From: Abyssibacter profundi
GTDB lineage: Bacteria; Pseudomonadota; Gammaproteobacteria; Nevskiales; OUC007
Assembly (NCBI RefSeq): GCF_003151135.1
Contig: NZ_QEQK01000005.1
Coordinates: 271,235 to 309,968 of the forward strand
DNA: 38,734 nucleotides
Direction of reading: 5' to 3'
The position numbers and the translations under genes were made by a program. The notes beneath the pieces are model-generated. The model had not been told where the DNA came from, made no database searches, and saw only the letters and a program-made list of their open reading frames with translations. The first letter of the stretch is position 1, and the number at the start of each line of letters is the position of its first letter. Of the stretch, positions 17,010 to 27,548 are shown piece by piece.

Positions 17010-17147
17010 ATGCCGCATGGCGCACCCAATGGCGCCGCCCGACCTCCGTCGCTGGACGCCGGTGGTCCGGACACAAGCGGCGCGTCGGTGCGATATCACG
17101 GGTGGAGGCCCATGCAGCACAGTCAACAACCCGGAGCCGGGTCATGA
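17010..17147 (+). CDS. Candidate 45-residue upstream ORF of the TonB-like operon
   Basis: The ORF starts with ATG at 17010 after a strong GGAGG five bases upstream, and its TGA overlaps the hydrolase ATG (ATGA). The product is Pro/Gly/His-rich, without a signal peptide or recognised domain. GATAAT at 16995-17000 resembles a -10 element, but if used it would give a leaderless message and make the GGAGG irrelevant. No family resemblance was recognised. It may be a coupling or leader ORF rather than a functional protein. Confidence 0.35.
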   Translation: MPHGAPNGAARPPSLDAGGPDTSGASVRYHGWRPMQHSQQPGAGS

Positions 17148-17923
17148 AGCGCGATGTGGTCCTCATTCACGGCATGTGGTGTCGCGGGGAGCATCTCGAC
17201 GCCGTGGCCACACCACTGCGTGAGGCCGGGTATCGCGTGCACCAGCCCACGCTGCCTTTCCATGATCAGTCCGATCGCGAAGACATGCGCGAGGCGTTGG
17301 GCCGCGCCAGCTTGCTGGACTATGCCGATTACTGTCAGGGCGTGATTCACCAACTGAAGTTCGCTGAGCCGCCGATACTGATCGGCCACAGCATGGGTGG
17401 CCTGATCGCGCAGATGCTGGCTGCGCGCATGCCCGTGCAGGCCCTGATGCTGTTCACCCCCGCGCCCCCCGCAGGCATCTTCGCCGTTTCGCCCCGGACG
17501 CTGCAGGTGTTCTGGCGCCGGCTACTGAGTTGGCGGTTCTGGCGGCAGCCGCACAAGCTCACGGCTGAGCAGGCCCGTCGGTATGCATTCAATGGTCTCG
17601 ACGCGGGCCGGGCCGAGCAGCTCTACCCGACCCTGGGGTTGGAATCTGGACGCGCCTTGTTCGAAATCGCCTGTTGGCCGCTGGACCGACGACAGGCGGC
17701 ACGGGTCGAGGCCAGCGCCGTCAGCTGTCCTGTTTACGTGCTGGGATGCGAGGATGACTGACTGACGCCGGCTGAGACCGTGCGCAAGGTGGCCCAGCGG
17801 TATCCGCAGGCCACACTGGAGATCGACCCCAACCGGGGACACTGGATGATTGATGACGACCGCACCGCCCAGACCATGGCACGGTGCATCGACTGGCTCG
17901 ACAAGCACCTGGAGACCGCCTGA
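17144..17923 (+). pseudogene. Alpha/beta hydrolase interrupted by an in-frame TGA at codon 206
   Basis: The first 205 codons encode a serine hydrolase: VVLIHGMWCRGEHLD supplies the oxyanion region and GHSMGG the nucleophile Ser83. At 17759-17761 a TGA interrupts GCEDD-(stop)-LTPAETVRKVA. The same frame then continues for 53 homologous codons, including NRGHW with the catalytic His, to a TGA at 17921. The stop therefore separates the acid and His residues of the catalytic triad. No frameshift is needed; a single C-to-T change in CGA (Arg) explains it. The terminated 205-residue product should be inactive. The distal stop overlaps the next gene's ATG (TGATG), so the original gene was the coupled upstream member of the operon. 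A sequencing error, recent nonsense mutation or readthrough all remain possible. Confidence 0.8.
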
Positions 17924-18687
17924 TGCGGCACATTGTTTTCCTCTCTCTGCTCTTGGCCTGGCTGCCATTAACCGCCCAGGACCGAATCGAGCAGGCCATC
18001 GACACCAGCGAGCAGACCACGCGTGAGGCGGTCCGCTCGCAGAACCGGATCGACCGGCTGGATGACGAAACCCGTCGCAAGCTGGAGGCCTACCGGCAGG
18101 CGATCTGGGAGCGGCAGCAACTGGAGGTGTACAGCCAGCAGCTGGACGAGTTGCAGCGCATCCAGACCGAGGATGTGACCCGCTTGCGCGAAGAATTGGC
18201 GGAAGTCCCGCTCAGTGAAGATGACCTGATGCCGCTTATGCTGCGGATGGTCAACGCCCTGCAGCGCTTTGTCGACGCCGACCTGCCGTTTCTGCAGGAC
18301 GAGCGGCAGCAACGGCTGACGTCCTTGAAACAAATGCTGGGAGACGCCGAATTGTCGGTGTCGGAAAAGTATCGACGGGTCATCGAGGCCTATCAGGTCG
18401 AACTGGACTACGGCCGTGGTCTGGCCAGCGAGCGCACGGAGCTCGAGGTCGCCGGGCGTCGTGTTGTGGTCGACCTGCTGCGCGTCGGCCGCGTCGCCAT
18501 GTATTTCCTCAGCCTGGATGGAGGCACGGCTGCGATTTGGGATCACGCCCTGGGCCAGTGGTCGGAGTTGCCGGCCACGCATCGCTCCATGATTCGCCAG
18601 GGCATTCGCATCGCGCGGGAGGTCGCCGCACCCGAGTTGCTGGAGCTGCCGGTGCCGGCCCCGAGTTCAGAGGAGGCGCCGCGATGA
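17923..18687 (+). CDS. DUF3450 periplasmic coiled-coil protein
   Basis: DUF3450 proteins are found next to TonB/ExbB genes in many marine gammaproteobacteria, and their molecular role is not established. The 254-residue protein has a signal peptide (HIVFLSLLLAWLPLTAQ) and then a long helical, highly charged region (about 18-120) suited to coiled-coil formation. The C-terminal part, VDLLRVGRVAMYFLSLDGG followed by AIWDHALGQW, is the most family-specific segment. The ATG at 17923 overlaps the hydrolase stop (TGATG), while its own stop overlaps the following ExbB-like start (ATGA). It probably acts in the periplasm with the proton-channel proteins. Confidence 0.88.
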   Translation: MRHIVFLSLLLAWLPLTAQDRIEQAIDTSEQTTREAVRSQNRIDRLDDETRRKLEAYRQAIWERQQLEVYSQQLDELQRIQTEDVTRLREELAEVPLSEDDLMPLMLRMVNALQRFVDADLPFLQDERQQRLTSLKQMLGDAELSVSEKYRRVIEAYQVELDYGRGLASERTELEVAGRRVVVDLLRVGRVAMYFLSLDGGTAAIWDHALGQWSELPATHRSMIRQGIRIAREVAAPELLELPVPAPSSEEAPR

Positions 18688-20027
18688 GGTCATGGATGCT
18701 GTTAATCGCACTGGCTCTGCCCGCTGCGGTCCACGCCGACGCACTGGATGACTTGCTGGAAGATGTCCGCAAGAGCCAGCAACAGTCGGCCGAGATCAAC
18801 GAGGCCCGTGAGGCACGTTTTCTTGCGGAGCGGGATCAGCAGGATGAGCTGTTACGCCAGGCGCAGCGAGACCTGGCTGCGGTCAAGCGCCGGGTCGACG
18901 CCCAGAAGGCGGAGTTTCAGAAAACGGCCAAGGAAATCGCCGAACTCAAGGCCGAGATCAAGGAGCAAACCGGCGAGCTGGAGCAGTTGTTCGGCACCAT
19001 TCGGACGGCTGCAGGCGACACCCGGGCGATTGTTCGTGATTCGCTGACCAGCGCCCAGTTCGCAGACCGCCTCGACGAGCTGAACCGTCTGGCCGATGGC
19101 GAGCGTCGGATTAACCTGGGGCAGCTGGAACAGTTCTGGTTCATCCTGCAGCAGGAGATGATCGAGGCGGGTCGCGTCACCACCTTTCCGGCCGATATTG
19201 TCGATTCCGACGGTCAGGCGACTGCGGCGGCCGTGAGTCGTGTCGGCGTGTTCACGGCCGTGGCCGATGGCCAGTATCTGGACTATCTACCCGAGGCGCA
19301 GCGCCTACAGGCCCTGGCGCGACAACCCGGTGGTGGCGCGCAGGATCTTGCACGTCAGTTCGCTGCGGCCGAGTCCGGTCCTGTCGACATGCTCATCGAC
19401 CCGACCCGCGGCAATCTCCTGGCCTTGCTCACCGAGCGTCCCAGCCTGTCCGAGCGGATCAACCAGGGCAGTGTTGTGGGTTACATCATCATCGCGCTGG
19501 GTGTGATCGGTTTGCTGCTGGCACTGGGTCAGGCCGGCTATCTGCTGGTGGTGGGGCGCCGTATGCGACAGCAACTGGGCGACATTGACCAGCCACGCGA
19601 CGACAACCCACTGGGCCGATTGTTGGGTTCTTTGGATGCCGCACTCACCGCGGGCGAGCGCGACCTGGAATCCCTGGAGCTGAAGCTGGATGAGGGCGTG
19701 ATACGCGAGACGCCGCGTCTGGAACGGGCCCAGAGCATCGTCAAGTTGCTGGCCGGCGTGGCGCCACTCATGGGATTGCTGGGCACGGTCACGGGCATGA
19801 TCGCGACCTTTCAGGCGATTACCCTGTTCGGTACCGGCGACCCCAAACTGATGGCGAATGGCATCTCGCAGGCACTGGTGACCACCGTGCTGGGCCTGGT
19901 TGTCGCCATTCCGCTGCTGTTCCTGCATTCGCTGCTCGCCGCGCGCTCCCGCTCGTTGACCCGTGTACTGGACGAACAGGCGGCCGGGCTGATCGCGCGC
20001 CGGATGGAGTCGTCACGGCGTGACTGA
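18684..20027 (+). CDS. Long MotA/TolQ/ExbB proton-channel protein (TtpC-like)
   Basis: The 447-residue protein has a cleavable signal peptide (WMLLIALALPAAVHA), a periplasmic coiled coil (about 25-105) and a further periplasmic region to about residue 270. One transmembrane helix is VVGYIIIALGVIGLLLALG. The MotA/TolQ/ExbB core then follows, with APLMGLLGTVTGMIATFQAIT and NGISQALVTTVLGLVVAIPLL. This architecture matches TtpC-like proteins of TonB2 systems, which link TonB complexes to the periplasm. AGGAGG precedes ATG 18684 by seven bases. It overlaps DUF3450 and the next ExbB-like gene, showing tight coupling. Confidence 0.9.
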   Translation: MRSWMLLIALALPAAVHADALDDLLEDVRKSQQQSAEINEAREARFLAERDQQDELLRQAQRDLAAVKRRVDAQKAEFQKTAKEIAELKAEIKEQTGELEQLFGTIRTAAGDTRAIVRDSLTSAQFADRLDELNRLADGERRINLGQLEQFWFILQQEMIEAGRVTTFPADIVDSDGQATAAAVSRVGVFTAVADGQYLDYLPEAQRLQALARQPGGGAQDLARQFAAAESGPVDMLIDPTRGNLLALLTERPSLSERINQGSVVGYIIIALGVIGLLLALGQAGYLLVVGRRMRQQLGDIDQPRDDNPLGRLLGSLDAALTAGERDLESLELKLDEGVIRETPRLERAQSIVKLLAGVAPLMGLLGTVTGMIATFQAITLFGTGDPKLMANGISQALVTTVLGLVVAIPLLFLHSLLAARSRSLTRVLDEQAAGLIARRMESSRRD

Positions 20028-20556
20028 ACTGCTGGCCTGGTGGCAGGACACCTGGACACCGATCCGCAGCTTTATCGACGCCGGCGGCCCGGTGTTATGG
20101 GCGCTGCTGCCCCTGACCGTGCTGCTGTGGACGCTGATTCTGGAGCGGTTCTGGTACCTCGGTTTCCGGCACGGGCGGGTTTTATCGGCGTACCGCGCCG
20201 AGTGGCAGGGCCGGGCCGAGCGCAATAGCTGGGAGGCTCGACGCATTCGCGAAGCCATGGTGTCCCAGGCCAGGGATTTGCAGGACCGCAGCCTGCCGGT
20301 CATCAAATCGCTCATCGCGCTCTGTCCGCTGCTGGGTTTGCTGGGCACCGTTACGGGCATGATCGAGGTATTCGAAGTCATGTCGTTGCGGGGGACGGGC
20401 GATGCCCGTGGGATGGCCGGAGGTGTGTCGCGGGCGACCCTGCCCACCATGGCCGGTATGGTCGTGGCGCTGTCGGGTCTGTTCTTCGCCAACCGCTTGA
20501 CGCGACTGGCCGACAAACGCACCCATGAGTTTGCGGACTCGTTGCGGTTTCACTAA
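20020..20556 (+). CDS. exbB: Short ExbB/TolQ-like proton-channel protein
   Basis: This 178-residue protein has the three-helix ExbB arrangement: GGPVLWALLPLTVLLWTLILERFW, then a cytoplasmic segment, then SLIALCPLLGLLGTVTGMIEVF and MAGMVVALSGLFFANRL. The family Pro/Gly/Thr motif is intact. ExbB pentamers normally surround an ExbD dimer and use the proton gradient to energise TonB. The start is GTG at 20020, overlapping the preceding gene by eight bases. Its TAA overlaps the tonB ATG (TAATG), leaving no room for the expected exbD. The stator partner must come from elsewhere or be absent. Confidence 0.92.
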   Translation: MTELLAWWQDTWTPIRSFIDAGGPVLWALLPLTVLLWTLILERFWYLGFRHGRVLSAYRAEWQGRAERNSWEARRIREAMVSQARDLQDRSLPVIKSLIALCPLLGLLGTVTGMIEVFEVMSLRGTGDARGMAGGVSRATLPTMAGMVVALSGLFFANRLTRLADKRTHEFADSLRFH

Positions 20557-21242
20557 TGCGTTTTCTTGCCCTCCCACCGCTGGCCTTGCTCATTGCCATC
20601 GGCCTGTTCTGGTTCATGCAATGGCTGACCGCACCACCTGAGGTGCCGCTGAAACCGCCGGTCCCGGATCGTCGCGTCGAGATGGTCAAGCCGCCCGAGG
20701 AACAGGAACAGCCCGAGCCTGAGCCCACCGAGTTGCTGGAGGCAGCGGCGCCGCCGTCGTCACCGCCGTCCATGTCGGCCATCGACTTGCCGACGACCAT
20801 GAACCTCACGGCGGACAGCCAGCCGGGTTTGGAGATGAATCTGCCGAATCTCGACGTGCCGGTGAATTTCGGTGGCTCGTCGGGCTTTGGTGAGGCCTTC
20901 GGCGGGTTCGGCGGCCGCGGCAGCGGCTCGGGCGCCGGTGGGTTCGGCAGCGGGCGTGGTTTCAAGGGCGAGCGTCTGGTCCCGTTGTCGACCGCTCGCC
21001 CGCAGATTCCCGAGTACGCCTACAAGCAGGGGATCGAGGGCTGGGTGGAAGTGGTGTTTGTCGTGACCACCCGAGGCACGGTGGAGAACGTGCGCGTCAT
21101 CGACGCCGACCCCAAGGGCGTGTTCGAGGCGGCCACCGTTGAGAGCGTGTCGAACTGGCTGTACGAGTCCACCTCGCGGCCGCGAGAGGTTAAGCAGAAA
21201 GTGTATTTCCGCCTTGAAGATTACCAGTACAACTGGCGTTGA
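20556..21242 (+). CDS. tonB: TonB-family energy transducer
   Basis: TonB carries energy from an ExbB-ExbD motor to outer-membrane receptors. The 228-residue protein has an N-terminal membrane anchor (about 4-25) followed by a Pro/Glu-rich rod (PPEEQEQPEPEPTE). The Gly-rich stretch near 108-133 is typical of TonB2-like proteins. The TonB C-terminal domain reads RPQIPEYAYKQGIEGWVEV through WLYESTSRPREVKQKV. The anchor has neither the His of E. coli TonB nor an Asp that could replace ExbD. The ATG at 20556 overlaps the exbB-like stop, with coupled translation likely. Confidence 0.9.
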   Translation: MRFLALPPLALLIAIGLFWFMQWLTAPPEVPLKPPVPDRRVEMVKPPEEQEQPEPEPTELLEAAAPPSSPPSMSAIDLPTTMNLTADSQPGLEMNLPNLDVPVNFGGSSGFGEAFGGFGGRGSGSGAGGFGSGRGFKGERLVPLSTARPQIPEYAYKQGIEGWVEVVFVVTTRGTVENVRVIDADPKGVFEAATVESVSNWLYESTSRPREVKQKVYFRLEDYQYNWR

Positions 21243-21246
21243 CGGG

Positions 21247-23805
21247 ATGCGCCAAACCCTCTTCGCCACAGCTTGCGCGTGCCTGCTGCTCCATGCCGGA
21301 GCAGGTCTGGCTGCGCAGTACGAAAGTGAGGTGCGGGTGCTGGATGAGGTGCCCAAGGTCGAGCAGCCGAAGAATGACCAAGCCTTGATCGACTCGGTGG
21401 AAAATGACCCCTACGCCCTGGCGCTGACACTCCGTGAACTGGCTGCGCGGGCGGCTCGGTCGGGGGATGCCAAGCAGGCGGCGGCGTATCTGCAACGCGC
21501 GTTGGACCAGAACGCCCTGTCAGCTGTGGTTCAGGATCAGATGCGGCAGACCTTGGGGCAGCTGTACCAGAACAGTGGCGAGTACCAGCGGGTCATCACC
21601 ACCCTGGCGCCTGATTTGCGCAATCGGTCGGATGCCGATCCCCAGTTGCTGCTAACCGTTGCGGCGGCTTATGCGCAGCTCAATCAGCATCGCCAGGCGC
21701 TTCCGTTCATCCAACGGGCGGTCGAGGCCGAGTCCGACCCCTCGCGCGAAATGCTACAGGTGTACGCAGCCGTGCTGCTGGCCCTGAAGCGCTACAACCA
21801 GGCGGCTCCGATTGTCGAGCGGCTGGTGCGTGCGGACCCATCCGATCGACAGGGGTGGCTGCAGCTGGCGGCCTTGCATGCCCAGCGCAAGGATTTCGAT
21901 CGGGCGGCGGCGGTCATGGAGCTGGCGCATCGCCAGGGCATGCTGGAAACTCCCGAGGAGCGACGCCAGCTGGCAGGCCTGTTCGTCCAGGCCGGCGCGC
22001 CGTACGAGGCCGGGGCGCTGCTCAATCGCTGGATTGAGCGCGATGAGCTGCCCGCTGACGCCGCGACCCTGGGCATGCTTGCAGATGCCTGGAGTGCGGC
22101 CCGGGAGACGCCGCAGGCCATCCGTGCACTCAATCGCCTGAATCAGGTTGCGCCCAGCAGCCGCAGCTGGCTGCAGCTGGGCCGGCTGCAGATGGAGCAG
22201 GCGCAGTGGGCCCAGGCCGAGCAGTCGCTGACGCGGGCACTGGCCGAGGCCGAAGACATTCCCACGGATCAGACCTTGGTGGCGCTGGGCCTGGCCCGCT
22301 ATCAGCAGGCAGATATCGATGGTGCGCTCCGGGCCTTCCGTCAGGCTGCCCGCTCCGGGCGGGTGCGGCGTGCGGCCGAGCAATGGGTGGGTTTTCTGGA
22401 GTCTGGCCGCGCTCGCGAACAGGCGCTGGAAGCCACGCGTGAGCTGGTCGCGCGGCGTGGTGAGGGTGAGGTGGCCAGCCGCTTCAGCGGCATGGAAACC
22501 CGCGAAGCGACCCGCCCGGGTATGGAGGGTGTCGACCCGGACCTGCCCCCGCTGACCGAAGTTGGCGCCTTGCGGGCAGGGACCGCAGACGGCCGCATAC
22601 CGCCCTGGACCGGCGGATTGACGGCCGATCAGCCGGGCCTGCGCCGTGTCGACGGCCAGCCGGTCAATCCGTATGCCGACGATGCCGTGATCAGCACGAT
22701 CCGGTCGACCAACTACACGCAGTACGGCGAGGCCTTGTCCGAAGGGCACAAGGAAATGCTGCGCCGCTTCAACGACTATGAAATGCGGGTGTACCCAAGC
22801 CGCCGGCCCGTGGTGTATCCGGAGCCGATCCGCCAGGCCTCGGTGAGTAACCGTCAGACGGCCCGGTTGTTGGAGTCGGATTCGATTTCCGGTGCCGACC
22901 TGGGTGTGCCGTTCGCCGAGCCTCAGACCGGTGCCGAGGTCATGTGGAACCACAGGGTGCGCTACCGCGGTCGTACCCAGGACTTCTACACCGACGAGAT
23001 GGTCGTGTTCTCTGATGGTGACCGGCTCCAGACCTCACGTCGCGAACATGTGTTGTTCGTGTACGGCAATCCGGCGCGGGCCGGCGAGGTCGATGACAGC
23101 AATATGCTGCTGTACTACGTCGGTTCGGTGGACAACGTGCCGATTGTCGGTCGCGCGATGGCGATTGTTCACGAGACCGCCAACCAGACGAAGGAAAAGC
23201 GTCGTATCTGGATTTCCGCCGGACAAACCGGCCGTGTGCGGCGTATCCCGCCGGTTGGATTCGACTTTCCTCGGCCGGGGTCCGAGGGGCTGAGCTTTGT
23301 CGACCAGATCGATATGTACAACGGCGGATTCCAGCGCTATGTCTGGAAGCTGCGCGGGCGACGTGAAATGCTCGTGCCGTACAACAGCTACGACATCAAT
23401 AGTCCGGCACAGCGATATGACCAGCTGCTGGGGCCGGGTCACCTCGATCAAAGCCAGGCGCGCTACGAATGGCATCGCGTCTGGGTGGTCGAGGCCACCG
23501 AACGGGCGCCGGCGCGGCACAAGATCGGCAAGCGGGTGTTCTATGTGGACGAGGACTCCTGGACGATTTTGATGGTGGATGTCTACGACCAGGCGGGCAA
23601 CCTCTGGCAGCTGCAGGAAGGCCATCTCTATTTCGACTGGGAGTCGCAGGTGGCCGTGTCGGCCCCCATCGTCCACTACGACTTCAAACGGAACGCCTGG
23701 TACGCCAACCGATTGCTGAACGAGGCCCGAGGTGTGGTCTTCAACCAAGGTGATTACGCCCCGCCGGACTTCAGTCCAAATCGTGCGCCGCGAGTCTTCC
23801 GATAA
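21247..23805 (+). CDS. TPR-DUF1329 fusion protein, exported
   Basis: This 852-residue protein joins two parts usually encoded separately. Residues 1-23 are a signal peptide. Residues about 50-410 are TPR-like repeats (for example SGEYQRVITTLAPDL and KRYNQAAPIVERLVRADP), resembling the repeat protein that ends TonB2/ExbB operons. From about 435 the sequence becomes a DUF1329 domain: GALRAGTADGRIPPWTGGL, EALSEGHKEMLRRF, EVMWNHRVRYRG and VPYNSYDINSP. DUF1329 proteins are exported, outer-membrane-associated proteins often found near RND-type transporters, and their biochemical role is not settled. The reading frame crosses the junction without interruption. ATG 21247 lies four bases after the tonB stop. 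The fusion suggests direct work between a TonB-linked periplasmic complex and an outer-membrane lipid-binding-type module. Confidence 0.88.
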   Translation: MRQTLFATACACLLLHAGAGLAAQYESEVRVLDEVPKVEQPKNDQALIDSVENDPYALALTLRELAARAARSGDAKQAAAYLQRALDQNALSAVVQDQMRQTLGQLYQNSGEYQRVITTLAPDLRNRSDADPQLLLTVAAAYAQLNQHRQALPFIQRAVEAESDPSREMLQVYAAVLLALKRYNQAAPIVERLVRADPSDRQGWLQLAALHAQRKDFDRAAAVMELAHRQGMLETPEERRQLAGLFVQAGAPYEAGALLNRWIERDELPADAATLGMLADAWSAARETPQAIRALNRLNQVAPSSRSWLQLGRLQMEQAQWAQAEQSLTRALAEAEDIPTDQTLVALGLARYQQADIDGALRAFRQAARSGRVRRAAEQWVGFLESGRAREQALEATRELVARRGEGEVASRFSGMETREATRPGMEGVDPDLPPLTEVGALRAGTADGRIPPWTGGLTADQPGLRRVDGQPVNPYADDAVISTIRSTNYTQYGEALSEGHKEMLRRFNDYEMRVYPSRRPVVYPEPIRQASVSNRQTARLLESDSISGADLGVPFAEPQTGAEVMWNHRVRYRGRTQDFYTDEMVVFSDGDRLQTSRREHVLFVYGNPARAGEVDDSNMLLYYVGSVDNVPIVGRAMAIVHETANQTKEKRRIWISAGQTGRVRRIPPVGFDFPRPGSEGLSFVDQIDMYNGGFQRYVWKLRGRREMLVPYNSYDINSPAQRYDQLLGPGHLDQSQARYEWHRVWVVEATERAPARHKIGKRVFYVDEDSWTILMVDVYDQAGNLWQLQEGHLYFDWESQVAVSAPIVHYDFKRNAWYANRLLNEARGVVFNQGDYAPPDFSPNRAPRVFR

Positions 23806-23934: not shown

Positions 23935-24963
23935 ATGAACGGGGCTACTGTGTTTACACGAACGCTGGATTCCGAGTCATTGCACAAGTTTGCGGCAGTT
24001 GAGGGGCTGGGCTCCCTAACCGCCGAGCCGTTGGATGTCCGCCTGGAGCGGATCACGCGTCTGGCGCGTCGCGCGCTGAACGCGGGCGGTGTTGTTGTCA
24101 GCTGGAAGGGGGACGACGGCCAGTGGATGCATTGTGGCTCCGGGCCCATCGAACGTGTCACCAGCAACGGTGATGCACCTGTCTGGTTGGAGCCGCTGCA
24201 GCAGCAAGACCAGTGGGTCCAGCGCGATGGTGACGTCGTGCCCTACCTCACGGCCATTCGCCTGGCCAGTTCGGATCGTGAGCTGGTTGGCGCACTCGTA
24301 CTATTTGACGATGCGGCCAAGCCACGCGGCAAGCATGACCATGATCGCATGCGTGATTACGCGTCCTGGGTGGAAACCGAACTGAGGGTCCAGCATCTCT
24401 ACCGCGGCCAGGAGCGATTGCTGGAAGAGCTGTACATGGCGCGGCATCAGGCGCTGAAAGATCAGCTCACGCGGCTGTGGAATCGCCACGCCATGGTTGA
24501 ATTGATGTCACGAGAACTGCAGCGGGCCGAGCGTCAGGTGATCGGTACCGGGCTGCTCATCGCAAGCCTGGACCAGATCGATGCGGGCGCAGAGCCGGAG
24601 ACCGCGCAGGCAGATGCCATGTTGAAGGCCACGGCAGATCGCATGACGACGGCGGTCCGCCCGTACGATGCCCTGGGTAAGTTCGGCGGCAATGAGTTTC
24701 TGGTGATGCTGCCGTCCTGTCCGGCCGGTGCCGTCAATGATGTGGCCGATCGCATGCTGCTCAGTGTCAGCGTCGAGCCCTTCGATACCAACGAGGGACC
24801 GATCCAGCTGAGCCTGAGCATTGGCACCGCCCACGCTGGGCCGAACGCGCGACTCGATCCAGAGGATTTAATCCGCGCTGCTGATTCGGCCCTTAGCCGG
24901 GCGCGCGGCGCCGGCGGCAATACCGTTGAGGAAGCCGTTCCGACGGACTACGACCCGATTTAG
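23935..24963 (+). CDS. GAF-GGDEF protein with degenerate cyclase site (GGNEF) and intact I-site
   Basis: This soluble 342-residue protein begins with a GAF-like domain (about 30-155), then a helix and a GGDEF domain from HQALKDQLTRLWNRHAMVE. The active-site loop is KFGGNEFLVML (GGNEF at 251-255). In MIDIDHFK-type cyclases the first Asp binds metal; here the aligned residues are ASLD, with Ser211 at that position. Both changes predict loss of cyclase activity. RPYD (242-245) lies exactly five residues before GGNEF, so the c-di-GMP-binding I-site is kept. It therefore resembles PelD-like c-di-GMP receptors more than a synthase. ATG 23935 follows TAGGAGG closely. It lies just downstream of the TonB-like operon but has a 129-base spacer. 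Confidence 0.85.
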   Translation: MNGATVFTRTLDSESLHKFAAVEGLGSLTAEPLDVRLERITRLARRALNAGGVVVSWKGDDGQWMHCGSGPIERVTSNGDAPVWLEPLQQQDQWVQRDGDVVPYLTAIRLASSDRELVGALVLFDDAAKPRGKHDHDRMRDYASWVETELRVQHLYRGQERLLEELYMARHQALKDQLTRLWNRHAMVELMSRELQRAERQVIGTGLLIASLDQIDAGAEPETAQADAMLKATADRMTTAVRPYDALGKFGGNEFLVMLPSCPAGAVNDVADRMLLSVSVEPFDTNEGPIQLSLSIGTAHAGPNARLDPEDLIRAADSALSRARGAGGNTVEEAVPTDYDPI

Positions 24964-24985: not shown

Positions 24986-25429
24986 TTACGCCGGGAGTCG
25001 GGCCTGGACCAGCGCCGCCAGCCTGGGCAGGATGGCCCGCACCTCTTGACCGGCCGTGCCGCGCAACTGGCGGTACATTTTCTTGAAGGTCTTGTTCTGG
25101 CTGTGCTCGGCGCGGGCGTCGGTGACCGACAGCATGGCCTCCTGGATATCCTCCTCTCGTTGGCTGACAAACCGCGGGAAATCGGTTTCGTCACTGGCGA
25201 GAAAGGCTTGGAAGTGCGGTTCGAGCGCTTCGCAGAAATCCGGCAGCAGGCGGTTGATCACCACCGGCAGAATGTCGGGCCGGTTGGCCTTGGCCATTTT
25301 CAATGCGGTGCGGATGCCCGCGCCTGACAGACCCTTGCGCTTGGCGATCTGGTCTTCGACCACATCGCTCACCTGCGCGACAACCGTGTCGCGGTAATCC
25401 TCTGCCAGTAGAATATCTGCAAGCTGCAT
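24986..25429 (-). CDS. DUF6918-like small protein of unknown function
   Basis: The 147-residue protein has the pattern of DUF6918 proteins, which I recall mainly from actinobacteria: LADILLAEDYRDTVVAQVSD near the start, then NRPDILPVVINRLLPDFCEAL, and KTFKKMYRQLRGTA near the C-terminus. It has no signal peptide or transmembrane segment and appears helical. The ATG at 25429 begins the conserved part; an in-frame upstream ATG at 25507 adds 26 unconserved residues. It is divergent from an ABC1-family kinase and close to a DUF2505 gene. The function is unknown; the family name is from memory and should be treated as tentative. Confidence 0.68.
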   Translation of the reverse strand: MQLADILLAEDYRDTVVAQVSDVVEDQIAKRKGLSGAGIRTALKMAKANRPDILPVVINRLLPDFCEALEPHFQAFLASDETDFPRFVSQREEDIQEAMLSVTDARAEHSQNKTFKKMYRQLRGTAGQEVRAILPRLAALVQARLPA

Positions 25430-25611
25430 GTCGCCGTTGATCTCCGTCAGAACGTGATGCGAGGCGGCGCGACGGCGAAATGGGTCACGGAGTTCGTGAA
25501 TCGCCAATGCGGTTTGTTAACGTGACAGCCCGCTCGTCCCGGGTCGGCAAAGTGCCGGCGTCAACGGTCGAGCGTCGAGCATCGATAACAGCTGCGCCAC
25601 CAAGGATTCGG

Positions 25612-27009
25612 ATGAGTGAAAACGGCGGCAAGCCTAGCATACGGCGGTTGAAGACCCGCCCCCGCGATCGCAACTGGGCGATGACGCGGATGGGACTGTC
25701 AGCAGGTGCCCATTTTGCAGCCCATTCGGTGGGTAATTTCTTCCGTTCGGGCTCGGATCGAGACGAGCGCAACCGGCAGTTCTATCAACAGCAGGCCCAG
25801 TTTCTGGCCGAGCAGCTGGGCGAGCTGAAGGGCTCGGTCATGAAGGCCGGCCAAATGCTGTCGCTCTACGGCCAGTACTTCCTCCCGCCCGAGGCCGTGG
25901 ATGTGCTGTCCGGCCTGCAGGATGACACCACGCCGGTGGACTGGTCGTTTCTCCAGCCGGTGATCGAGGACCAGCTGTCCGCTGCGCGTCGGGCCGAGTT
26001 GGAGATCGACGAGCGACCGATTGCCGCGGCTTCGCTGGGTCAGGCTCACCGGGCACGTCGCAAGTCCGACGGGCTGGAGCTGGTGATCAAAATTCAATAC
26101 CCCGGCGTGGCCGATGCCATCGACAGCGACGTCAAGACCATCGTCCGGCTGCTGTGGCTGTCCAAAATGGTGCCGCGTGAGTTGTCGCTGGACCCGGTGA
26201 TTGCCGAGGTGCGGGACATGCTCCGGCGGGAAGTGGACTACGAGCATGAGGCGCGGGCGACCCAGGCCTTCGCGGCCAAGCTGGCCGATGACCCGCGTTT
26301 TGTCGTGCCCCGAATCCTGCCCGAGTACTCCGGCCGGTCGGTGCTCACCATGACCTACGAGCAGGGCGTGGCGTTGCGATCCGAGCAGGTGCGCAACCTG
26401 CCGCAGACGCAGCGCGCTGAACTGGGTCGCTCCTTCATCTGGCTGTTCCTGCGCGAGTTCTTCGATTGGAAGATGGTCCAGACCGACGCGCATTTCGGGA
26501 ACTACCGTGTACGTCTGTCAGAGGGGCAAGCGCCACAGCTGGTACTGCTGGATTTCGGTGCAACCCGACACTTCTCCTCGGCATTCGTGGCCGGCTATCG
26601 CGAGGTCGTGGCCGGCGCGGTCGAACGTGATCAACAGCGGCTTGTCGCCGGTGCCGAGTCGATTGGATTGATGAGCAGCGGGTTTCCGGCCGACACGCTC
26701 AAGGCGTTTGCCGAGCTGTGCTACACCATTGTTGAGCCGTTCATGATCGGGACCGACCATCCACCACCGGCTGCCCTGGTCGGGGATCTCGGGTACCGCT
26801 ACGGCCAGACGGACCTGCCGCGCCGCGTCACGCAGCTGATGTCGCGCGCGGCGCTTTCGCGATATTTTCGAATCCCACCGCGTGAGATCGTGTTTCTACA
26901 TCGCCGCATGGCGGGTGCATTCATCGCCCAGACCGTGCTGGACGTGGAGTGGGATGCCCGCGAGCTGGTGCTCGACGCGCTGGGGGCGGCGGCCGACGAG
27001 GCCACCTGA
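25612..27009 (+). CDS. ABC1/AarF/UbiB-family atypical kinase
   Basis: ABC1 proteins are atypical protein-kinase-like ATPases linked to isoprenoid lipid or ubiquinone biology. The 465-residue protein contains the family KxGQ motif (KAGQ, 78-81) in LKGSVMKAGQMLSLYGQY, followed by FLPPEAVDVLSGLQDDTTP. The Ala-rich loop reads IAAASLGQAHRA, the ATP-binding Lys lies in LVIKIQYPGV, and catalytic/metal residues occur in QTDAHFGNYRV and LLDFGATR. No C-terminal UbiB transmembrane hairpin is evident, so it is probably a non-UbiB member. ATG at 25612 has AAGG upstream; the longer open frame to 25480 crosses the divergent promoter region. DUF2505 follows after 41 bases. Confidence 0.9.
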   Translation: MSENGGKPSIRRLKTRPRDRNWAMTRMGLSAGAHFAAHSVGNFFRSGSDRDERNRQFYQQQAQFLAEQLGELKGSVMKAGQMLSLYGQYFLPPEAVDVLSGLQDDTTPVDWSFLQPVIEDQLSAARRAELEIDERPIAAASLGQAHRARRKSDGLELVIKIQYPGVADAIDSDVKTIVRLLWLSKMVPRELSLDPVIAEVRDMLRREVDYEHEARATQAFAAKLADDPRFVVPRILPEYSGRSVLTMTYEQGVALRSEQVRNLPQTQRAELGRSFIWLFLREFFDWKMVQTDAHFGNYRVRLSEGQAPQLVLLDFGATRHFSSAFVAGYREVVAGAVERDQQRLVAGAESIGLMSSGFPADTLKAFAELCYTIVEPFMIGTDHPPPAALVGDLGYRYGQTDLPRRVTQLMSRAALSRYFRIPPREIVFLHRRMAGAFIAQTVLDVEWDARELVLDALGAAADEAT

Positions 27010-27050: not shown

Positions 27051-27548
27051 ATGAAATTTCAGCAATCGCTGCAGTACAACAAGCCATCGGACGAAGTCAT
27101 CCAGCTATTCGGTGACCCCAGCTACTTCGAGCGCAAGTTCCAGAAGCTCAATGCGCTGGCCTTCGACGTGCTGGATCAGTCCAGCACCGGTGACCAGTTC
27201 TCGATCAAGATGAAGCTGACGTTCCCGCTGAGTGTGCCGGTGCCGGGTTTCGCCAAGAAGGTGGTCGGTGACACCACCACGCTCATCGAGCAGGACAGCT
27301 GGGATCTGGCCGCCAAGACCGGCACGCTGTCGGTCGATATTCAGGGCGCTCCGGTCAAGGCGGTCGGGCAGATGAAGCTTGTCGACCAGGCCGGCGGCTG
27401 CGTCAATGAAATCAGTTGGGATATCAGCTGCTCGGTGCCGCTGATCGGCAAGAAGATCGAAAAGCTCATTGCCGATGACATCCAGGCCAAGGGTGCTGAC
27501 GATGCACGTGTCACCAATGAACTATTGGCAGACAACGCCGGCGCATGA
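27051..27548 (+). CDS. DUF2505 family protein (START/SRPBCC-like)
   Basis: The 165-residue protein matches the layout of DUF2505: an N-terminal beta strand/helix beginning FQQSLQYNKPSDEVIQLFGD, a central beta region with LTFPLSVPVPGFAKKVVGD, and the C-terminal SCSVPLIGKKIEKLIADDI. Such proteins have a predicted SRPBCC-type hydrophobic-ligand cavity, but no reaction is known. ATG at 27051 has a strong GGGAGAGAGC upstream. Its TGA overlaps the DUF2970 ATG. Linkage to an ABC1 kinase and DUF6918 suggests a shared lipid-related role, which is inference. Confidence 0.8.
   Translation: MKFQQSLQYNKPSDEVIQLFGDPSYFERKFQKLNALAFDVLDQSSTGDQFSIKMKLTFPLSVPVPGFAKKVVGDTTTLIEQDSWDLAAKTGTLSVDIQGAPVKAVGQMKLVDQAGGCVNEISWDISCSVPLIGKKIEKLIADDIQAKGADDARVTNELLADNAGA

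Follow-up and report, generated by a model that had tools for sequence, protein, structure and literature searches.

What would a TonB-type motor do with a DUF1329 domain built into one of its own subunits? The question is raised by a 38,734-nucleotide stretch of the Abyssibacter profundi genome (contig NZ_QEQK01000005.1, positions 271,235 to 309,968 of the forward strand; hereafter the window, with coordinates counted from its first base), in which a single open reading frame joins a TPR protein to a DUF1329 domain. The frame runs from an ATG at 21247 to a stop codon at 23803-23805 without interruption and encodes 852 amino acids (aa), just as the original prediction, made from the letters of the DNA alone, had claimed. 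The best explanation of our results is that the gene encodes the TPR subunit (TtpD) of a TonB2-type motor and that this subunit carries a DUF1329 domain. The gene and its parts are the following.

21247..23805, + strand: ttpD::DUF1329 fusion, with signal peptide, TPR superhelix, linker and DUF1329 domain (from the frame, Pfam and the structural model)
21247..22458, + strand: TPR half, TtpD-like (Pfam TPR models; matched by the unfused TtpD paralogues of the same genome, 412 and 437 aa)
22540..23805, + strand: DUF1329 half, of predicted LolA-type fold (PF07044, 332.9 bits; domain model; structure matches)

The fused protein and its operon

Domain searches recovered both halves of the protein. 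Several Pfam TPR models match it between residues ~60 and ~370, and PF07044 (DUF1329) matches residues 484-836 over profile positions 1-356 of 368 with 332.9 bits (E 3.8e-99) against a curated cut-off of 23.1 bits. This is far beyond chance and bears out the assignment of the second half to DUF1329 in the original prediction. A search of NCBIfam with the DUF1329 half alone returned zero matches. Judged by eye and by the usual rules for signal peptides and lipoboxes, the N-terminus resembles a signal peptide and has no lipobox; residues A22, Q24, Y25 and S27, where the mature protein begins, are almost invariant among relatives. The fusion protein is probably exported.

To describe the arrangement of the two halves we used an AlphaFold2 model of the full-length fusion, built on an alignment of 38 rows (the window and 37 of 40 loci from the named genomes described below), with a mean predicted local distance difference test score (pLDDT) of 83.8 and a predicted template modelling score (pTM) of 0.57. 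The model has helices at residues 44-404, a stretch with pLDDT below 50 at residues 403-424 and then a beta-rich domain up to the C-terminus; its low pTM is consistent with two rigid parts that would be held on a loose tether. Because a structure search with the full-length model was swamped by TPR proteins, the DUF1329 half was folded separately (46 alignment rows), giving a pLDDT of 89.1 and a pTM of 0.91. The best structural match of this model was LolA3 of Porphyromonas (9tp6; Z score 19.8, root-mean-square deviation 2.9 over 233 residues), and it also matched the solved DUF1329 structure 4z48 (Z 17.6), the Vibrio LolA-like domain 3bk5 (Z 17.1) and classical LolA (Z 7-9). The model thereby gives the DUF1329 half a LolA-type barrel fold. 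It would share with the LolA and LolB carriers and with LolA3 a barrel with a hydrophobic groove, such as is described for LolA3 in PMC13103446; it differs from them in its fusion to a TPR arm and in sequence, the structural alignments giving 14% identity to LolA3 and ~4-8% to classical LolA.

Four genes precede the fusion.

17923..18687, + strand: ttpB (DUF3450), first conserved gene of the motor operon (PF11932, 252 bits)
18681..20027, + strand: ttpC, ExbB-like with a long N-terminal region (PF01618, 101 bits at residues 324-430)
20020..20556, + strand: exbB, second MotA/TolQ/ExbB protein (PF01618, 84 bits)
20556..21242, + strand: tonB (PF03544 TonB_C, 48.1 bits)

They share one strand and overlap each other by 1-8 bases, and a gap of 4 bases separates them from the fused gene, which is the terminal gene of a compact TonB2-type operon. 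The ttpC product also shows a weak DUF3450 match at residues 7-194, under the Pfam cut-off. For Vibrio, PMC6957404 gives the order of the TonB2 operon as TtpB-TtpC-ExbB-ExbD-TonB-TtpD and describes TtpB2 and the TPR protein TtpD2 as essential in the TonB2 system, TtpD2 for siderophore uptake. The window has in common with the Vibrio TonB2 and TonB3 systems, as that paper presents them, a DUF3450 gene in first place, an ExbB-like TtpC followed by a second ExbB, a TonB with its C-terminal domain and a TPR protein in last place. Unlike Vibrio TonB2, its TtpD ends in DUF1329 (a term absent from the Vibrio paper), its operon is without ExbD, no receptor gene adjoins it, and LolA-like and MMPL genes are linked to the operon in some of its relatives. 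Neither half of the fusion is new by itself. Nor is the DUF3450 gene, which had been counted towards an undescribed system: it is TtpB, the first gene of the known operon type (PMC6957404). The proposed position at the end of a TonB/ExbB operon stands, the five-gene order being present, and has to be corrected in one respect, the absence of exbD, which the original prediction had missed.

In the window tonB overlaps exbB by one base, and there is no exbD in the operon and no ExbD on its contig (C5). A motor gene without an adjacent exbD or tolR has been termed highly atypical in PMC12204202. Of the 39 fused loci in which exbB and tonB are both visible, 35 have ExbD; the four exceptions belong to the family of the window, f1 (L128, L129), and to family f117 (L090, L091), and the window is a further case outside the 39. 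All three f1 genomes in which the exbB-tonB junction is visible (the window genome G000, G002 and G003) have no exbD in the operon, nor have both f117 genomes, which keep its other parts. The operon of the window's family has lost ExbD. The genomes with an exbD-less fused operon hold 4 to 9 ExbD matches elsewhere (7 genes in G000, 9 in G002, 7 in G003), and these may replace the lost protein. Relocation of ExbD out of the fused operon is unsupported, as the ExbDs from the fused operons of relatives best match C11:48274, which comes from an unfused operon; a loss common to f1 and f117 was considered as well, and their clade was neither shown nor rejected (approximately unbiased test, p 0.25). 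Because ExbD in the operon, one defining feature of the TonB2 type, is lacking, we describe the window operon as a variant that works like this type and is derived from it; most of its relatives have the full gene content. On contigs C11 and C14 the window genome holds two further Ttp operons (loci L084 and L085); both include ExbD, and their TtpD proteins, of 412 and 437 aa, are unfused.

Some variation in gene content was seen among the Ttp operons at large. Tandem ExbD pairs occur in two unfused ones (L177 3-650; L180 3490-4095), one gene per pair being cut by the end of the stretch, and in G016 an extra ttpC-like gene and an ExbD stand ahead of ttpB (L203 3801-5671). A gene of the Na+/H+ exchanger family lies between tonB and the fusion at L149 (5697-6932, PF00999), with a similar frame at L146 (5766-7001), and several other loci of the Nevskia group have a similarly sized gap between the two genes.

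Conservation and origin of the fusion

Of the 85 genomes of the order, which we take to be Nevskiales, 58 encode TPR and DUF1329 in a single frame, and many of the 58 are isolates. In one additional genome (G007) the fusion is cut by a contig end, and 16 of the 26 genomes without it belong to genera g7 and g15 of family f6. When a collection of named genomes was scanned with the TPR half, 40 loci were recovered and all proved to be fused; the search patterns were built from 13 fused rows, and the scan therefore favours the fused kind. These named loci include Abyssibacter (81-82% identical to the window), Solimonas, Nevskia, Hydrocarboniphaga, Algiphilus, Fontimonas and Panacagrimonas, and tonB precedes the fusion at every one of them except L130, which meets a contig end. 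In a sample of 369 genomes drawn evenly from the class the fusion was seen in G000, G006, G151 and G267 (two of the order, two of f117), and in a sample of 398 drawn evenly from the phylum in the window genome only. Outside the order these two samples thus showed it in one further family, f117, in searches that scored two candidates per genome and may have missed some.

For 18 of the 26 order genomes that lack the fusion we also looked for the TPR protein. It is present in five of them, in seven copies, all unfused and all in an operon with its own tonB and exbD; no DUF1329 frame lies near these seven in the downstream sequence in view, which is 0.9-1.5 kb for three and at least 8 kb for four (G016, G011). 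The recurrence across genera that the original prediction had looked for is therefore seen, and the two objections it had raised against itself, separate ttpD and DUF1329 genes in close relatives and a second half other than DUF1329, fall away, given that the second half does belong to DUF1329 and that several genera share the fusion; no split pair was met in the relatives examined. An assembly artefact, or a chance read-through of two genes, is refuted: strain genomes of Solimonas, Hydrocarboniphaga, Fontimonas, Panacagrimonas and Sinimarinibacterium share the same fusion, and nothing was found in favour of this explanation.

The history of the domain was approached with a quick tree of 99 DUF1329 domains, in which the class is represented by 26 solo domains and several branches are long, 24 loci (mostly second copies of genomes already included) having been left out beforehand. 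The 43 fused domains and the truncated domain of G007 fall on one side of a branch with a Shimodaira-Hasegawa-like approximate likelihood ratio (SH-aLRT) support of 100. Since the fused domains share one side of a fully supported branch, a single origin of the fusion is likely, and it is best explained if TtpD was joined once to DUF1329, early in the order or before it. The tree groups f117 with f3, with a long-branch warning. Derivation of the fused domain from an adjacent solo DUF1329 gene is not favoured, as those neighbours fall in another clade of the tree.

Both halves are under purifying selection. Nei-Gojobori ratios of nonsynonymous to synonymous substitution (dN/dS) between the window and G002, G001 and G003 were 0.127, 0.118 and 0.254 for the TPR half and 0.085, 0.090 and 0.195 for the DUF1329 half; with synonymous sites close to saturation, these values are rough. 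More than 50 columns are invariant in an alignment of 35 fused and 11 solo DUF1329 domains, and the window, which is among its rows, keeps the invariant residues. A fusion conserved in this way says that TtpD and DUF1329 act at one place, and a study of its structure and interactions could therefore inform both families. The open-access literature that we searched yielded no description of the fusion or its conservation, of a link between MMPL or LolA-like genes and a Ttp operon, or of the ExbD loss.

An upstream pump gene pair and the possible role of the fusion

In part of the order the fused operon is linked to genes of an RND-type pump, a link which the original prediction had not noticed. 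A Pfam scan of 22 regions around fused operons, covering 65 frames with a length of 560 aa or more (shorter frames and those cut by a region end lay outside it), found MMPL in five cases, and the linked MMPL proteins are of the RND type with a C-terminal cyclic-nucleotide-binding (cNMP-binding) domain. A LolA_like gene and an MMPL gene stand as a pair directly upstream of ttpB and on the same strand in four genomes (G006, G010, G013, G021); at L041 (913-4427) and L082 (14933-18499) the pair lies immediately before the DUF3450 gene of the fused operon. LolA_like precedes MMPL in all 11 stretches in which that sequence is visible, two of the LolA_like calls being confirmed as PF17131 by Pfam and the rest made with a model built from those two. 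With one MMPL protein as the query against the 85 order genomes (E <= 1e-60), a homologue turned up in 56 of the 58 genomes that carry the fusion; of the remaining 27 genomes 6 have one, among them G007 with its cut fusion. In 18 of the 58, from 9 genera of 3 families, the homologue is no more than 25 kb upstream and on the same strand, and 27 of 28 MMPL-fusion pairs on the same contig have MMPL upstream on the same strand. By our own estimate, which treats genomes that are in fact related, random placement of a single gene would put it in that upstream range in well under 1% of genomes of such size.

Taken together the fusion and this linkage suggest that TonB energy may act on DUF1329. We think it slightly better than an even chance (about 0.52) that this is a TonB-type motor adapted for the transport of hydrophobic or lipid molecules, in which DUF1329 serves as a tethered carrier and MMPL and LolA-like proteins are partners. 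In such a scheme the ExbB/TtpC motor would draw on the proton gradient, and TonB and the TPR arm would reach through the periplasm. The flexibly tethered DUF1329 barrel could take up a hydrophobic or lipid molecule and pass it between the outer membrane and an MMPL (RND) pump of the inner membrane, together with the LolA-like partner of that pump. A pull from the motor would serve to load or release the carrier, or to open a partner in the outer membrane; we lean towards delivery from the inner to the outer membrane. More tentatively, these parts could make up a trans-envelope lipid or hydrophobe machine, in which the proton motor acts on the tethered LolA-like carrier instead of, or besides, a TonB-dependent receptor, and works together with the MMPL/RND pump and a second LolA-like protein. 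If true, this machine would be a further use of the TonB-type motor family beside receptor opening and Tol-Pal, and if the MMPL link reflects function a TonB-type motor can drive lipid or hydrophobe traffic across the envelope. The LolA-like/MMPL pair, seen in part of the order, lends some support to the system for hydrophobic or lipid substrates put forward in the original prediction, which loses its DUF3450 component as a novelty.

DUF1329 proteins are met with in hydrocarbon and detergent metabolism. AmeB (DUF1329, LolA superfamily) and the RND pump AmeD of Castellaniella AmeABCD are described as acting in monoterpene metabolism (PMC6394551). For P. putida, growth on Tween 20 is reported to require proteins of the DUF1302 and DUF1329 families together with a periplasmic protein and an RND-type pump, a transport role for DUF1302/DUF1329 being proposed from co-folding (PMC10866462), and deletion of a DUF1329 gene in Delftia is reported to have impaired growth on phenanthrene (PMC13101534). 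In these DUF1302-DUF1329-MMPL systems (Ame; PP_0765/PP_0766/PP_2018/PP_2019; the nanopod clusters of PMC3110197 and PMC13101534), as far as the sources describe them, DUF1329 is genetically tied to an RND/MMPL pump and to hydrophobic substrates. The present case differs in that DUF1329 is fused to a subunit of a TonB motor, DUF1302 lies outside the operon, and the upstream MMPL of the relatives has a cNMP-binding domain and pairs with LolA_like (PF17131). Because DUF1302 is absent from contig C5, the window operon is not an Ame-type system, and no MMPL/RND gene is linked to it at the window locus either; five of the seven strong solo DUF1329 genes of the same genome have DUF1302 within 3 kb. 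A further parallel is TOL_3187 of Thalassolituus, raised on a long-chain alkane, in which MMPL and a LolA-like domain are joined in one protein; unlike the fusion, that protein as described in PMC6304351 includes no TonB-motor subunit.

Several observations weigh against a carrier coupled to an MMPL pump. The MMPL homologue lies farther away on the same contig in 10 of the 58 fusion genomes, on another contig in 28 and is missing in 2. In the window genome itself the nearest homologues are on contigs C1 and C3 (37% identical to the query), and its LolA_like-MMPL pair, on C1, is unlinked to the fused operon. In f117, the 19.9 kb in view for the fused operon contain neither a LolA-like, MMPL, ABC1 or DUF2505 gene nor a solo DUF1329. 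MMPL, LolA_like, ABC1, DUF2505 and DUF1329 genes are also all missing from stretches of 18-20 kb with six unfused Ttp operons (two in G000, three in G016, one in G011). As a control for MMPL this is weak: only ~4-7 kb upstream of ttpB is in view, no MMPL homologue passes the threshold in G011 or G016, and the fused operon of G000 is unlinked too. Phylogeny, with a few large clades, shapes the co-occurrence of MMPL and fusion: 21 genomes have neither, and 16 of these belong to g7 and g15 of a single family. DUF1302, the usual outer-membrane partner of DUF1329, was found in one of 22 fused regions (frames of at least 560 aa), the downstream ABC1-DUF2505 pair described below is absent at 12 of 32 named loci, and the TonB of the window retains the C-terminal domain that serves ordinary receptors.

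That intact TonB_C, together with 17 receptor-barrel-family matches in the window genome, would also suit ordinary TonB2-type, receptor-mediated uptake of iron or other nutrients, in which DUF1329 would be an accessory that, for example, catches a hydrophobic ligand as it enters the periplasm. The remaining parts do match the Vibrio TonB2 operon with its TtpD2 essential for siderophore uptake (PMC6957404), and TonB-dependent receptors have been tied to alkane uptake (PMC6304351). We nevertheless regard this as doubtful, since both unfused Ttp operons of the window genome have a TonB-dependent receptor gene 2-4 kb upstream whereas no receptor gene lies within 125 kb of the fused operon on its contig, a single receptor was found among the 65 long frames of the 22 fused regions, and in four genomes LolA-like and MMPL genes stand directly upstream instead. 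TPR and motor proteins also occur in Tol-Pal, and the fused operon could serve outer-membrane upkeep in a similar way, or sense envelope damage with its LolA-type domain binding a lipid signal in the manner of RseB. RseB and MucB are indeed among the weaker fold matches of the DUF1329 half, but at Z 6-7, which is background level, against 17-20 for LolA3 and DUF1329; the MMPL link, present in some members of the order, speaks for transport, and a Tol-Pal-like or sensing role seems improbable.

The window's family could instead be losing the system, with exbD gone, the coupled hydrolase broken and the fused gene a relic. The missing exbD in all three f1 genomes with a visible junction and the in-frame stop in the hydrolase of the window would be expected from decay. 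Against it stand the low dN/dS of the fused gene between G000 and G002 (0.13 for the TPR half, 0.09 for the DUF1329 half), the retention in the window of the residues invariant across fused and solo DUF1329, the other ExbD genes of the f1 genomes and the case of f117, which is likewise without an operon exbD and yet keeps the rest. We consider decay very improbable, and a motor adapted to hydrophobic or lipid cargo remains the reading that we prefer.

Other neighbouring genes

Further features of the window lie on both sides of the operon.

17144..17761, + strand: alpha/beta hydrolase frame, cut short by the in-frame stop TGA at 17759-17761 (PF12697, 56 bits)
23935..24963, + strand: GGDEF protein, just downstream of the fusion (PF00990, 78.6 bits)
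24986..25507, - strand: DUF6918 protein, a common opposite-strand neighbour (PF21893, 145 bits)
25480..27009, + strand: ABC1/UbiB-like kinase, a conserved downstream neighbour (PF03109, 190 bits)
27051..27548, + strand: DUF2505 protein of the SRPBCC lipid-binding type, a conserved downstream neighbour (PF10698, 108 bits)

The hydrolase, which had been taken for a part of the system, is interrupted in the window genome. An uninterrupted relative of 260 aa exists at L064/L128, and the stop may be a mutation or a sequencing error, both being possible. Of the 40 named loci, which include some with short flanks, 19 have a relative of this hydrolase upstream.

Downstream neighbours were counted at the 32 named loci with at least 5.4 kb of downstream sequence. 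The ABC1 kinase follows the fusion at 21 and DUF2505 at 20 of them; the two occur together at 20 of 32, compared with none of the six unfused Ttp operons, a fair contrast because at least 7 kb downstream is visible in the unfused operons. The DUF2505 protein AhfA of Corynebacterium is described as having a lipid pocket and being required for mycolic acid synthesis (PMC9671496). A solo DUF1329 gene lies downstream of the fusion at 15 of the 32 loci, and a GGDEF match at the position seen in the window was found in family f1 only, among the fused loci examined. The one DUF1302 gene of the 22 fused regions belongs to G005 (L081 17426-19501), where it lies 6.6 kb downstream of the fusion.

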